Assembly (NCBI GenBank): GCA_021812735.1
Contig: JAKAMV010000581.1
Location: forward strand, 1 to 6,716
Source: Chloroflexota bacterium
Lineage (GTDB): Bacteria > Chloroflexota > Limnocylindria > Limnocylindrales > CSP1-4
Length of the DNA stretch: 6,716 nt
Direction of reading: 5' to 3'
Made by a program: the position numbers and the translations under genes. How positions within the stretch are numbered: the stretch's first letter is position 1; every line of letters starts with the position of its first letter. The notes under the pieces are model-generated. The model was given only the letters and a program-made list of their open reading frames with translations. It searched no databases and was not told the DNA's origin. Of the stretch, positions 2,886-6,716 are shown piece by piece.

Positions 2886-3710
2886 GTGAGCATAGGGGGA
2901 TCCATGAATCACTTGCCCGGCCGCCTGTCGCGGCCGTCTTCCGATTGGCGACCACTCCTGCGCCATGTCTCGGCGACCGCGATAGCGGGACTCGTCGTCC
3001 TCTCTGCCGGCCTCTCGCCCAGCGTCGCTGAGGCAACCGTCGTCCACAGCCCGCCCTGGGCTGATTCCTTCGGCGCGAAGTGGGACGGGACGAACGGCCT
3101 CGACACGCGTGCCTCCGCGCTGTGGATGAAGACCAAGCTCGGCGCCAAGGGCTACACCGCGTACACCGCCAACGGGTACGCCGCCTCCACGTCGATGGGC
3201 TCGAGCTACGCTCAGTCGGACGCCGTGTGGGCCATGTTCGGCCATGCGAACCGAGGCTTCATCACGCAGTACGCGGGGAGCACGAGCACCGTCCTCCACG
3301 CCGTCCCGAACGGCACCCTGTACTCGTGCTCCTCGCCGCACGCCTGCCTTAGCAACTACGGCGGCGGGAAGATCAGCAAGATGAAACTCATGGTGTTCGG
3401 CGGCTGCTACACCGCCCTGGCGGGCAATGACTCGCTGCCCTACAGCGCGGACCTTGGGATCGTCGCGACGCAGGCCGACGGCGTGAGCACTGCGGTCGGC
3501 TTCGACAGCGAGATCTTCTGGCCGCCGATGGACAAGTGGTCGGAGGTGTTCTTCGGCGACCTCGCTGCGGGGCACGACGTGAGCCACGCCCTCATCCTGG
3601 CCGCCGACCAGGCCGCGATCTCGAACGGGGGCAACTACGGCGGCACCAACTACTTCGACATGTTCGGTAGCACCACGACGACCGTCGTGCCAGCGGGGTA
3701 TGGGTCATGA
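2886..3710 (+). CDS. Exported caspase-like (clan CD) cysteine peptidase candidate
   Basis: A 274-residue protein not assignable to a named family by eye. From GTG 2886 it has a basic N-terminus, a hydrophobic core (about 29-46) and an AEA signal-cleavage site after residue 50. The mature part carries the spacing seen in caspase, gingipain and CHAT-type folds: a hydrophobic strand then AMFGHAN (His120), a second hydrophobic strand KLMVFGGCYTA (Cys174), then a GVSTAVGFDSEIF strand, WSEVFFGDLAAG and a helix SHALILAADQAA, matching the usual end of the fold (VIGF, FW..L..G.s, A...A). Cys148 and Cys154 could form a disulfide. The start is supported by GAGGGGA at 2872-2878, 8 bases before the GTG; ATG 2904 is an alternative with GGGGG only 4 bases upstream. 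A TAGGAT -10-like hexamer at 2813-2818 lacks a clear -35. The stop overlaps the next gene by ATGA, implying coupled translation. Gene is secure; the protease role is inferred. Confidence 0.85.
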   Translation: MSIGGSMNHLPGRLSRPSSDWRPLLRHVSATAIAGLVVLSAGLSPSVAEATVVHSPPWADSFGAKWDGTNGLDTRASALWMKTKLGAKGYTAYTANGYAASTSMGSSYAQSDAVWAMFGHANRGFITQYAGSTSTVLHAVPNGTLYSCSSPHACLSNYGGGKISKMKLMVFGGCYTALAGNDSLPYSADLGIVATQADGVSTAVGFDSEIFWPPMDKWSEVFFGDLAAGHDVSHALILAADQAAISNGGNYGGTNYFDMFGSTTTTVVPAGYGS

Positions 3711-4513
3711 TCGGATCGATCCGGCTCCATCCGGCGCGCGGCCTCACCGTCACGGCCGTGCTCGTCACGGCGGGGCTGCTCGCCGTCGGCATCGTCTCTG
3801 TCAGCTCGGCTACCCCGCCGGGCCCGCGCATGACCGACAACGTTCGGCCGTCGGGGGCTCGCGCGGCCGTCGAGCGTTTCCTCGGGCAAGCCGTGCCCGG
3901 CGCGGCGATCACCGGCCCTGATCGTGGGCTGTTCCGCCAGACATACAAGGTCGAGACACCGGACTTCACGGCGCTGGTCGATGCGTTCGACGGCCGGGTC
4001 GTGTACTTCCTCAACGCCCCCGGCCAGCTCATCCACGGCGCATCCGCACGGACCTTCGATCCGGTCGAGATCGCGACGCGCGTCCTCACGGAGCACCGCG
4101 GGGCCATGCCAGGGGTCAAGCCCACCGTGACCCGTGCTGACCACGGCGCCCTTCAGCTCATCGAGGTCACGTGGCAACGGACGAGTGGGGCCATCAGGCT
4201 GCCCGACATGCGACGCGTGGTGCTCGACGCCGAGACCGGTGCCGTCATCTCGTACATGAACGATCAGCTGCCCTACGCGGATCCGCCGACGACGGCCGTC
4301 ACGCAGGAGCAGGCTGAGCAGACGGCCCTGGCTGCCTGTGGGCTTTCCCACCCGTCGGTGACAAGGGCCCAACTCCTCGTGACTTTCGACTCGACGACCG
4401 GGGCGCAGGTCCTCGTGTGGAGAGTCGATGTCTTCGACGAATCCGTGCCCGCGGCCGCAGAGGTCGAGGTTGACGCCGTCACCGGCGTCGGCACGGTCAC
4501 GGGCCGAGGCTAG
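3707..4513 (+). CDS. Membrane-anchored protein with three PepSY-like units
   Basis: A 268-residue protein translated from ATG 3707, overlapping the peptidase-like gene's stop by 4 bp. A hydrophobic helix at about 13-34 is a signal anchor, putting the rest outside the cytoplasm. The remainder falls into three units of roughly 55-70 residues, each an alanine-rich helix followed by beta strands ending in an acidic turn: ARAAVERFLG to VDAFDGRVVYF (51-101), VEIATRVLTEH to VVLDAETGAVISYM (120-184), and EQAEQTALAACG to VEVDAVTGVGTV (201-264). The D-x-x-T/D-G-x-V signature is the hallmark of PepSY/YpeB-like domains, found in propeptides and regulators of secreted peptidases. Together with the upstream gene this suggests inhibition or chaperoning of the protease; it could instead be a general cell-envelope PepSY protein. 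No enzymatic motif is seen. Confidence 0.88.
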   Translation: MIGSIRLHPARGLTVTAVLVTAGLLAVGIVSVSSATPPGPRMTDNVRPSGARAAVERFLGQAVPGAAITGPDRGLFRQTYKVETPDFTALVDAFDGRVVYFLNAPGQLIHGASARTFDPVEIATRVLTEHRGAMPGVKPTVTRADHGALQLIEVTWQRTSGAIRLPDMRRVVLDAETGAVISYMNDQLPYADPPTTAVTQEQAEQTALAACGLSHPSVTRAQLLVTFDSTTGAQVLVWRVDVFDESVPAAAEVEVDAVTGVGTVTGRG

Positions 4514-4520
4514 AAGGAGG
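4514..4520 (+). promoter_or_regulatory. Shine-Dalgarno AAGGAGG fixing a GTG start
   Basis: AAGGAGG, an essentially ideal site, begins immediately after the TAG of the PepSY-like gene and lies 9 bases before GTG 4530. It settles the start of the propeller gene, whose frame is open far upstream inside the preceding gene. Confidence 0.8.
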
Positions 4521-4529
4521 AACCGCACG

Positions 4530-5501
4530 GTGCGCCGTCGGAGCATCGCTCTCGTCGTCCTGGCGGCGCCTGTCGCGGTGGCGGTCGTCGTGGCCGCCGC
4601 CGCGACGGGGTGGGGGACCGCTCCGGCGCCCCGGCCGAGCGGGCGCACGGCCTCGTTCGATCCGCGGACGGCGGTCGTCGTTGGCCCCGACATCTACGTC
4701 GCGGGGGCAAGCCTGACCAAGGACTCCCGCGGGGTCGTCGCGGTGTCGCAGGACGGCGGCCGGACGTGGTCGATGGCGCTGCTGGACGCCCCTCCGGTGG
4801 TTCGCGCGGCGAGCGACGGCTCGTCGGTCTGGCTGGCGACTGACTGCGGGGGGCGCAACGGTGGGCGGTGCCTCCTCCACGGCACGGCCCAGGGCGGCTG
4901 GCGCGAGGTGGCGTCACAGCCGATCGACGACCTCATCGCCGGACCGGCCGGCTCGCTCACGACCGTCGTGCACCCCGTCCGCCAGCCGCCGCGTCTCGCC
5001 GAGACCGACGATGGTGGCTCCAGCTGGCACGACGTCATCTCGCCCTGTCCTGACAGCCGGGTCCCGATTGCGATTGCCGGTCGCACCACGCTCTCGCATG
5101 CCGTCTGCGGCGTGTGGCTGCCCGACCAGGGATGGGTCGCCCTCGACGACTGGCTGCTCGTCCGCAGGGACCACGCGAGATGGGAGACCATCTCGCGCTC
5201 GTCAGGGCAGTCGATTGAGGATCTCGCCTCATACAACCTTGGCGCCATAATCCTGACGCTTGGGGGTGGGGGCTGGCTGCAGGCCAACGGCCATCTGTAC
5301 AGGACTCAGGACGACGCCGCCACTTGGTCGCGCGTGGACGTCGACCCGTCCAATGCCCTCTCGGTCGCCGCCGTGGCCCCCATCGACGCCGCCAACGCGT
5401 ACGTCGTGCTCCGCACCGAGGGCAACCCGTCTCGGCTGATGCGCGGCGACAGCAGCACCGGCTGGACGGTTGTGGCGACGTGGCCGTGGGCATGGCCGTG
5501 A
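4530..5501 (+). CDS. Anchored or exported BNR/Asp-box beta-propeller protein
   Basis: A 323-residue protein starting at GTG 4530. The N-terminus MRRRSIALVVLAAPVAVAVV and the following residues to about 27 form a basic-then-hydrophobic signal anchor; a proline-rich linker (31-37) follows. The rest is rich in short beta strands, with Asp-box motifs of the S/T-x-D-x-G-x-x-W type at 73-80 (SQDGGRTW) and 159-166 (TDDGGSSW) and a degenerate one at 259-266 (TQDDAATW). Such motifs mark sialidase, Ycf48 and sortilin-like propellers. No sialidase active-site set is recognisable, so a binding or scaffold role is more likely than an enzyme. Cysteines 106, 114, 173 and 193 could form disulfides outside the cell. 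It is the third gene of the operon, 16 bp after the PepSY-like stop. It ends with an odd tryptophan-rich tail, TWPWAWP, before TGA. Confidence 0.85.
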   Translation: MRRRSIALVVLAAPVAVAVVVAAAATGWGTAPAPRPSGRTASFDPRTAVVVGPDIYVAGASLTKDSRGVVAVSQDGGRTWSMALLDAPPVVRAASDGSSVWLATDCGGRNGGRCLLHGTAQGGWREVASQPIDDLIAGPAGSLTTVVHPVRQPPRLAETDDGGSSWHDVISPCPDSRVPIAIAGRTTLSHAVCGVWLPDQGWVALDDWLLVRRDHARWETISRSSGQSIEDLASYNLGAIILTLGGGGWLQANGHLYRTQDDAATWSRVDVDPSNALSVAAVAPIDAANAYVVLRTEGNPSRLMRGDSSTGWTVVATWPWAWP

Positions 5502-5900: not shown

Positions 5901-5998
5901 TGGCGGGAGCGCATGGGAGTCGAACCCACCGCGCGACGCCGGGCGCCGCGCCAACTGGTTTTGAAGACCAGGAGGCCCACCGGGACCCATCCGCTCCC
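5901..5998 (-). tRNA. selC: Selenocysteine tRNA, tRNA-Sec(UCA), CCA encoded
   Basis: Read on the - strand, 98 bases fold as a bacterial tRNA-Sec. The acceptor is GGGAGCGG against GCGCTCCC (seven pairs, with a G-G mismatch at the eighth). The D arm has six pairs, GGGTCC/GGGCCT including two G-U, around a CGGT loop. The anticodon stem is CTGGT/ACCAG with loop CTTCAAA, giving anticodon TCA (bases 5962-5964). The long variable arm is an 8-bp stem, GCGCGGCG/CGTCGCGC, with loop CCCGG. The T arm has TTCGACT in the loop and five pairs. Discriminator G and an encoded CCA (5903-5901) follow. The 6-bp D stem, long acceptor/T stack, large extra arm and UCA anticodon are diagnostic and separate it from tRNA-Ser. 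It is charged with serine, converted to selenocysteine, and inserted at UGA codons. It diverges from selD. Confidence 0.96.
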
Positions 5999-6036: not shown

Positions 6037-6716
6037 ATGACCGCGCGTCCCGAGCCCCCGACGATCCGCCTGACCGACCTCACCGATTGTGGCGGCTGCG
6101 CCGCGAAGCTGGGCGCCGACCTGCTGGCCGACGCCCTGGCCGGGCTCGGCGCGATCACGCCCACGGCAGGGCGCCTGATTGCCGGCCTCGAGCCGCCCGA
6201 CGACGCCGCCGCGTACCAGGTCTCAGACGACCTCGCGATCCTCGGCACGCTCGACTTCTTCCCGCCGCTCGTTGACGACCCGGTGGCGTTCGGCGAGATC
6301 GCGGCCGCCAACGCGCTCTCCGACGTGTTCGCGATGGGTGGCCGCGTGCTGTTCGCGCTGTCGATCGCGGCGTTCCCCGAGGAGCTGCCGCGCGACGTGC
6401 TGGCGGCCATCTTCGGGGCCGCCGCGGGCAAGGTCCGCGAGGCGGGCGGGGTGCTCGCCGGCGGGCACACGATCAAGGACTCGGAGCCGAAGTACGGGCT
6501 GGCCGTGGTTGGCGCGGCCCATCCCGACCGGCTGTTCCGCAAGGGAGGCGCGCGCCCCGGTGACCTGCTGCTGCTCACCAAGCGCCTTGGCACGGGGCTG
6601 CTGGTGAGCGGCCGGCGCTCGGGCGTCGTCGGACAACCGGACCTCGAGGCGGCCATCGCGCAGATGCGGCAGCTCAACCGGGCGGCCGCCGAGGCCCTCG
6701 CCCGGCACGGGATCCG
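6037..6716 (+). CDS. selD: Selenide, water dikinase (selenophosphate synthase) SelD, 3' truncated by window
   Basis: SelD makes selenophosphate from selenide and ATP, the selenium donor for selenocysteyl-tRNA and selenouridine. About 226 residues, some two thirds of the usual length, are present. The N-terminus IRLTDLTDCGGCAAKLGADL carries the catalytic pair Cys21 and Lys24 in a C-A-A-K arrangement; the catalytic residue is TGC cysteine, not UGA. The AIRS-like ATP-binding core follows: DDAAAYQVSDDLAILGTLDF with metal/phosphate-binding aspartates, then FGEIAAANALSDVFAMGG, then the glycine-rich LAGGHTIKDSEPKYGLAVVG. ATG 6037 is the first start available and directly follows a TATGAT box with only 6 bases between, so the mRNA is probably leaderless; no Shine-Dalgarno is present. 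The neighbouring tRNA-Sec confirms the pathway. selA and selB may lie beyond the window. Confidence 0.96.
   Translation, partial: MTARPEPPTIRLTDLTDCGGCAAKLGADLLADALAGLGAITPTAGRLIAGLEPPDDAAAYQVSDDLAILGTLDFFPPLVDDPVAFGEIAAANALSDVFAMGGRVLFALSIAAFPEELPRDVLAAIFGAAAGKVREAGGVLAGGHTIKDSEPKYGLAVVGAAHPDRLFRKGGARPGDLLLLTKRLGTGLLVSGRRSGVVGQPDLEAAIAQMRQLNRAAAEALARHGI

Follow-up and report, generated by a model that had tools for sequence, protein, structure and literature searches.

Two overlapping genes, g1 and g2, within a 6,716-nucleotide stretch of the genome of an uncultured member of the Chloroflexota (the window; G000:C56:38492-45207, minus strand, within a 3.9-Mb assembly) are read here, at a probability of roughly 0.55, as a bicistronic unit in which an exported enzyme is accompanied by a PepSY protein that regulates it in trans. 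This reading builds on the observed gene layout and linkage of the pair, on a clan CD-type fold predicted for g1 together with conservation of its His/Cys dyad, and on three PepSY units in g2, for which YpeB is the nearest solved fold. As stated in a preliminary description of this DNA, g1 (2886-3710), g2 (3707-4513) and a third gene, g3 (4530-5501), are three consecutive plus-strand genes coupled by an ATGA overlap (g2 ATG 3707; g1 TGA 3708-3710) and a 16-bp gap. The gap separates the g2 TAG (4511-4513) from the g3 GTG at 4530 and contains the g3 ribosome-binding site, AAGGAGG (4514-4520). All three proteins begin with a basic start, a hydrophobic stretch and small residues, which we read as Sec-type export segments, in agreement with the signal or anchor helix that the same description had given to each.

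The best start of g1 was GTG 2886, with a ribosome-binding-site-like GAGGGG at 2872-2877 and 8-nt spacing. Counted from this codon the predicted catalytic dyad is His120/Cys174, and from the alternative ATG 2904 it is His114/Cys168. Both residues were invariant among aligned relatives, His120 (codon 3243..3245, plus strand) in 10/10 rows reaching the site and the predicted nucleophile Cys174 (codon 3405..3407, plus strand) in 12/12 rows, and in the structure model they follow strands 113-118 and 166-172, respectively. The alpha/beta fold of the model matched structures from the group that comprises caspases, C25, CHAT and separase; titles from outside clan CD (DdvA and an axoneme entry) were also among the matches. 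The caspase-like fold proposed earlier is thus supported by a middling-confidence model and the invariant dyad, and g1 is predicted to be an exported clan CD-like cysteine peptidase of caspase/CHAT/gingipain type. Cys148 and Cys154, on the loop that separates the two dyad residues (3327..3347, plus strand), were both present in 9/11 rows reaching the loop and may possibly form a disulfide.

Gingipains (C25) and CHAT-domain enzymes resemble g1 in fold and dyad placement, and gingipains are also exported, whereas g1 has neither a Pfam clan CD match nor a gingipain-size propeptide. A cis propeptide is almost absent from g1, whose fold begins about 10 residues after the likely signal cleavage site. 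We know of no PepSY partner for gingipains or CHAT-domain enzymes. Prokaryotic metacaspases/orthocaspases (C14) likewise share the caspase-type fold and dyad, but g1 has no C14 match in Pfam. Some of these enzymes are predicted to be extracellular or to carry an N-terminal helix, according to the accessible part of a 2012 survey of prokaryotic caspase homologs, and the word PepSY is absent from its text (PMC3501461). A literature search, mostly without subscription journals and partly of incomplete texts, found no treatment of PepSY paired with a caspase-like, gingipain or CHAT enzyme.

Enzymes of the kind found in the window (the first version of the pair; a second is described below) gave no Pfam family at E up to 1 in 9/9 members, C14, C25 and CHAT included, and a PDB sequence search with g1 returned no matches. 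In this family, Ala often stands in for the Gly that normally comes after the catalytic His. The lack of a Pfam match and the replaced Gly would suit a catalytically dead clan CD fold serving as a binding scaffold, but His and Cys occupy their canonical positions without exception and the second version has an invariant HGD and an invariant Cys in its STC motif, which leaves such a scaffold scarcely credible.

Relatives of g1 were found in 8/107 genomes of the family (G000, G004, G005, G007, G008, G018, G181 and G445), and in 8/8 of them the next gene downstream, on the same strand and either overlapping g1 or at most 12 bp away, is a g2 relative; chance adjacency of the two genes was therefore rejected. 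Start codons were chosen by hand in G181 and G008, that of G004 is unclear, and g1 of G018 is cut by the contig end. Identity between genomes was 28-42% for g1 and 25-37% for g2, with G007-G181 (65% and 53%) treated apart as one close pair. A sample of 400 genomes of the phylum held no g1 relative outside the family apart from two chance matches, G184 and G281, which were considered as distant Chloroflexota relatives and rejected as short matches (E 9.1e-4 and 4.7e-4) in open reading frames (ORFs) that we read as glycosyltransferase-like. An all-against-all comparison of ORFs of at least 100 aa across the eight neighbourhoods (4.4-20 kb) showed that, besides the pair, they share only ATP-binding cassette (ABC)-type genes, recombinases (G004 and G181) and two genes that follow the pair, one solute-binding-like (G007 and G181) and one for a short lipoprotein (G005 and G008), the names being partly our own reading. 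With few other genes common to the eight neighbourhoods, the pair persists in varying surroundings. In G445 (L025 1219-2732, G445:C159) the g1 relative is truncated, without the His half, and the g2 relative that comes after it is intact; this genome also holds a second-version locus elsewhere (L115). The G004 module (L011 336-18523, G004:C107) has a serine recombinase gene on each side, together with an I36-type peptidase inhibitor match that narrowly misses its cut-off, a gene for an ABC transporter and one for a reprolysin-type metallopeptidase downstream.

The product of g2 (plus strand) is a YpeB-like triple-PepSY protein with an N-terminal export/anchor helix. The three PepSY-like units claimed for it previously are present in the structure model, at residues 48-103 (3848..4015), 119-187 (4061..4267) and 200-267 (4304..4507, all plus strand); Pfam alone sees one, at residues 198-260 (1e-6; 29.4 bits vs a curated cut-off of 24), and NCBIfam gave no family at E up to 1. 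In the model, these C-terminal PepSY repeats have the YpeB fold, the nearest one solved, and M4-type propeptides (vibriolysin/thermolysin-type) were also among the solved matches. The first PepSY helix begins at residue 48, which leaves no room for the large N-terminal domain of YpeB (residues 21-202, roughly 180 residues ahead of the PepSY region, in the available text of PMC6660665).

The SleB-YpeB operon of Bacillus similarly sets an exported hydrolase and a membrane-anchored PepSY protein side by side, PepSY second. It differs in that SleB is a lytic transglycosylase whereas the partner of g2 is, by prediction, a clan CD-like peptidase rather than a SleB-type hydrolase, and in that g2 has neither the YpeB N-terminal domain nor an NCBIfam match. 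In the accessible portions of two reports, SleB and YpeB share an operon, neither escapes degradation when the other is missing, YpeB may keep SleB inactive, and YpeB is cut during germination (PMC13393411, PMC6660665). The PepSY propeptides of M4 metalloproteases also place a PepSY fold beside an exported peptidase, but in the same chain as the enzyme, whereas g2 is a separate gene product; the M4 enzymes are moreover metallopeptidases, unlike the predicted cysteine peptidase g1.

A regulator acting in trans is the simplest reading because g2 folds nearest to YpeB, the operon partner of a hydrolase, and to protease propeptides, and because g1 is virtually without a propeptide and has g2 as its neighbour wherever it was found. 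Under this proposal, g1 would be exported by Sec as a single-domain clan CD cysteine peptidase, and g2, translated from the overlapping start, would be anchored or released beside g1 and bind it in trans. By analogy with YpeB/SleB and the M4 propeptides, g2 would most likely maintain the fold and location of g1 and block its activity, and removal or rearrangement of g2 would end this state. The role of inhibitor or chaperone first suggested for g2 is one that we still infer, with YpeB and M4-type propeptides among its nearest solved relatives.

Several observations weigh against this proposal. The g1 model reached a pLDDT (predicted local distance difference test) of only 59.4, the root-mean-square deviation of the g2-YpeB superposition was large (7.1 over 206 residues), rows 2-3 of the g2 structure match list are uncharacterised proteins, and related PepSY proteins also occur without an adjacent enzyme gene. 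The g1 and g2 identity sets correlated (r 0.68, Mantel p 0.02), but r fell to 0.12 without G181, and no co-evolution argument is drawn because the correlation depends solely on the G007-G181 pair. In the part of PMC6660665 available, the strongest in vitro inhibition of SleB came from the YpeB N-terminal domain, which g2 lacks, no PepSY-SleB cross-links were found, and the YpeB PepSY region was reported to be necessary for stable SleB incorporation. The requirement for the PepSY region, the stronger inhibition by the N-terminal part and the fact that g2 is little beyond PepSY units would fit a foldase, anchor or stabiliser that aids folding and membrane retention of g1 with no control of its activity. 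However, the M4 PepSY-type propeptides found among the solved matches of g2 are inhibitors as well as foldases, and we regard a purely supportive g2 as unlikely.

Matches resembling g2 occurred in 24/107 family genomes. At loci L053-L056, genes for proteins of the triple-PepSY type that carry an additional N-terminal part (1360-2343, 1348-2355, 1306-2367 and 1372-2361, in match orientation) lie downstream of genes that we read as extracytoplasmic function (ECF) sigma-factor-like; judged from sequence, these proteins may be anti-sigma factors in which PepSY acts as the sensor. At L060, L063-L066, L074 and L077 (of the genus labelled g2), lipoprotein-like g2 relatives stand just downstream of what we read as a purH-like gene, and no enzyme of the present kind was seen adjacent to them. 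PepSY proteins of the g2 family thus have several settings, since ECF-linked and purH-linked relatives exist. The source genome also encodes a second triple-PepSY-type protein, lipoprotein-like and apart from the module (L072 1225-2211, G000:C32). Given the ECF-linked relatives, and with nothing else conserved beside the enzyme, g2 might serve as a sensor or substrate, the peptidase cutting g2 or an anchor to release a signal as in a sigma/anti-sigma setting; yet g2 has no cytoplasmic domain ahead of its helix and no sigma gene stands beside the pair in the window, so that this alternative is quite unlikely.

The pair recurs in a diverged second version. It came to light in G454 (L071), where the gene beside a weak g2 match encodes another exported protein, bearing the motifs HSHGD and STC, and is succeeded by one for a PepSY/FTP-like protein (FTP E 0.17, under the cut-off). 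Relatives of this enzyme were found in 51/177 genomes of the class and in 17 of a sample of 400 phylum genomes, every one within the same order. One locus each was fetched for 40 genomes at the top of the 51-genome match list, and a PepSY-like partner lay downstream on the same strand in 40/40 (E 1e-143 to 5e-10); the partner profile was built from 18 of these loci, and 22 are independent of it. The locus retains the same chromosomal neighbours in many genomes (by eye), and the 40 loci are for this reason not 40 independent events. HGD and the Cys of STC were invariant in the second-version enzymes. Profile comparison between the versions gave a score of 39.7 (probability 66%) for the enzymes, where 100 column shuffles reached at most 26.4, and 65.2 (95.5%) for the partners, where shuffles reached at most 19.8, with unrelated profile pairings at probabilities of at most 3%. 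Such comparison was informative only with a family alignment, as hhalign of alignment A4 against the single L071 protein gave a probability of 1.4%. The top PDB sequence match of the second-version enzyme profile, a CHAT protein, fell short of significance (E 0.073), and none of three second-version enzymes scanned exceeded a curated Pfam cut-off. Its motifs and the profile link suggest that the second-version enzyme shares the clan CD-type fold.

In G004 the locus has serine recombinase genes on either side, in G181 such genes are adjacent to it and in G007 a Replic_Relax gene is close by, and third genes differ between loci, as might be expected if the pair were mobile-element cargo used in bacterial competition or conflict, with the enzyme hitting other cells and g2 providing immunity. 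Against this, g1, g2 and the second-version enzyme L099 had no match in PADLOC or PHROGs at E 0.1, no relative was found in the viral contigs searched, and in many genomes the second version, judged by eye, stays with its chromosomal neighbours; we consider cargo of this kind very improbable.

The g3 product (plus strand) is an exported protein with three Asp-boxes (S/T-x-D-x-G-x-T-W) at residues 73-80, 159-166 and 259-266, whereas 2000 shuffles averaged 0.0015. It is likely the Asp-box propeller that the preliminary description named, although its BNR/sortilin Pfam matches were all sub-threshold. A g3 profile had some match in 20/107 genomes, below 1e-100 in G000 and G004 only, and the other six g1 genomes had none. 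The g3 relative of G004 precedes the enzyme gene instead of following it, on the same strand. Synteny was conserved for the g1-g2 pair, in 8/8 genomes and in the second version, but not for the propeller (2/8, upstream in one), which was rejected as a conserved third component. For a g1 relative (P0002) and a g3 relative (P0011), the longest contig on record has the same length, 16247 bases, and a further complete g1-g2-g3 set may exist.

Other exported proteins occupy the third-gene place in other lineages. A lipoprotein-like gene is next in 18/40 second-version loci, that of the query included, several stretches ending too early to tell; six further loci carry a relative of it, and a lipobox pattern was present in 16/23. 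These genes were rejected as g3 relatives (hhalign probability 0.1-0.3%), and 2/4 of those scanned had sub-threshold WD40/PD40 matches. The third exported protein, here the Asp-box protein, would probably provide surface or substrate binding and be swapped between lineages. More tentatively, and with less confidence than in the g1-g2 unit itself, the two versions may represent two new exported families of clan CD cysteine peptidases, in one Chloroflexota order as sampled, that are controlled in trans by co-encoded triple-PepSY proteins of YpeB/propeptide-like type as split zymogens, with lineage-specific third subunits (Asp-box propeller, solute-binding-like protein or lipoprotein) setting target or trigger.

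By ORF and Pfam reading, the module is preceded in the window by a CbiQ/CbiO-like transporter pair, a Fur-family regulator and a UbiE-like methyltransferase frame on the minus strand (1872-2225, ~117 codons), which is apparently shortened and whose end meets the 3' end of the Fur-family gene; this junction carries a direct repeat of 16 bp (1924-1939 and 1957-1972, by eye). Downstream, a tRNA-Sec gene (5901-5998, minus strand) adjoins a selD-like gene (6037-6716, plus strand), and this adjacency suggests that the source organism uses selenocysteine. Third-position GC of the module genes (0.85-0.89) was somewhat below that of four measured neighbours (0.93-0.98).

The recurrence of the same gene pair in related genomes suggests an undescribed extracellular protease-control system, which is probably invisible to routine annotation because the scanned enzymes (9 of the first and 3 of the second version) have no Pfam match above the cut-off. 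A unit of enzyme plus PepSY protein is already known, and what is new here is the predicted enzyme class; in the literature searched, as far as its texts were accessible, caspase-type enzymes and regulators of the YpeB kind had not been linked. With two diverged versions of conserved layout, binding and control can be tested directly on small proteins. If the reading is correct, bacterial caspase-type enzymes would have an exported branch served by its own YpeB-type regulator acting in trans, and the PepSY principle of enzyme regulation would reach beyond spores and metalloproteases.
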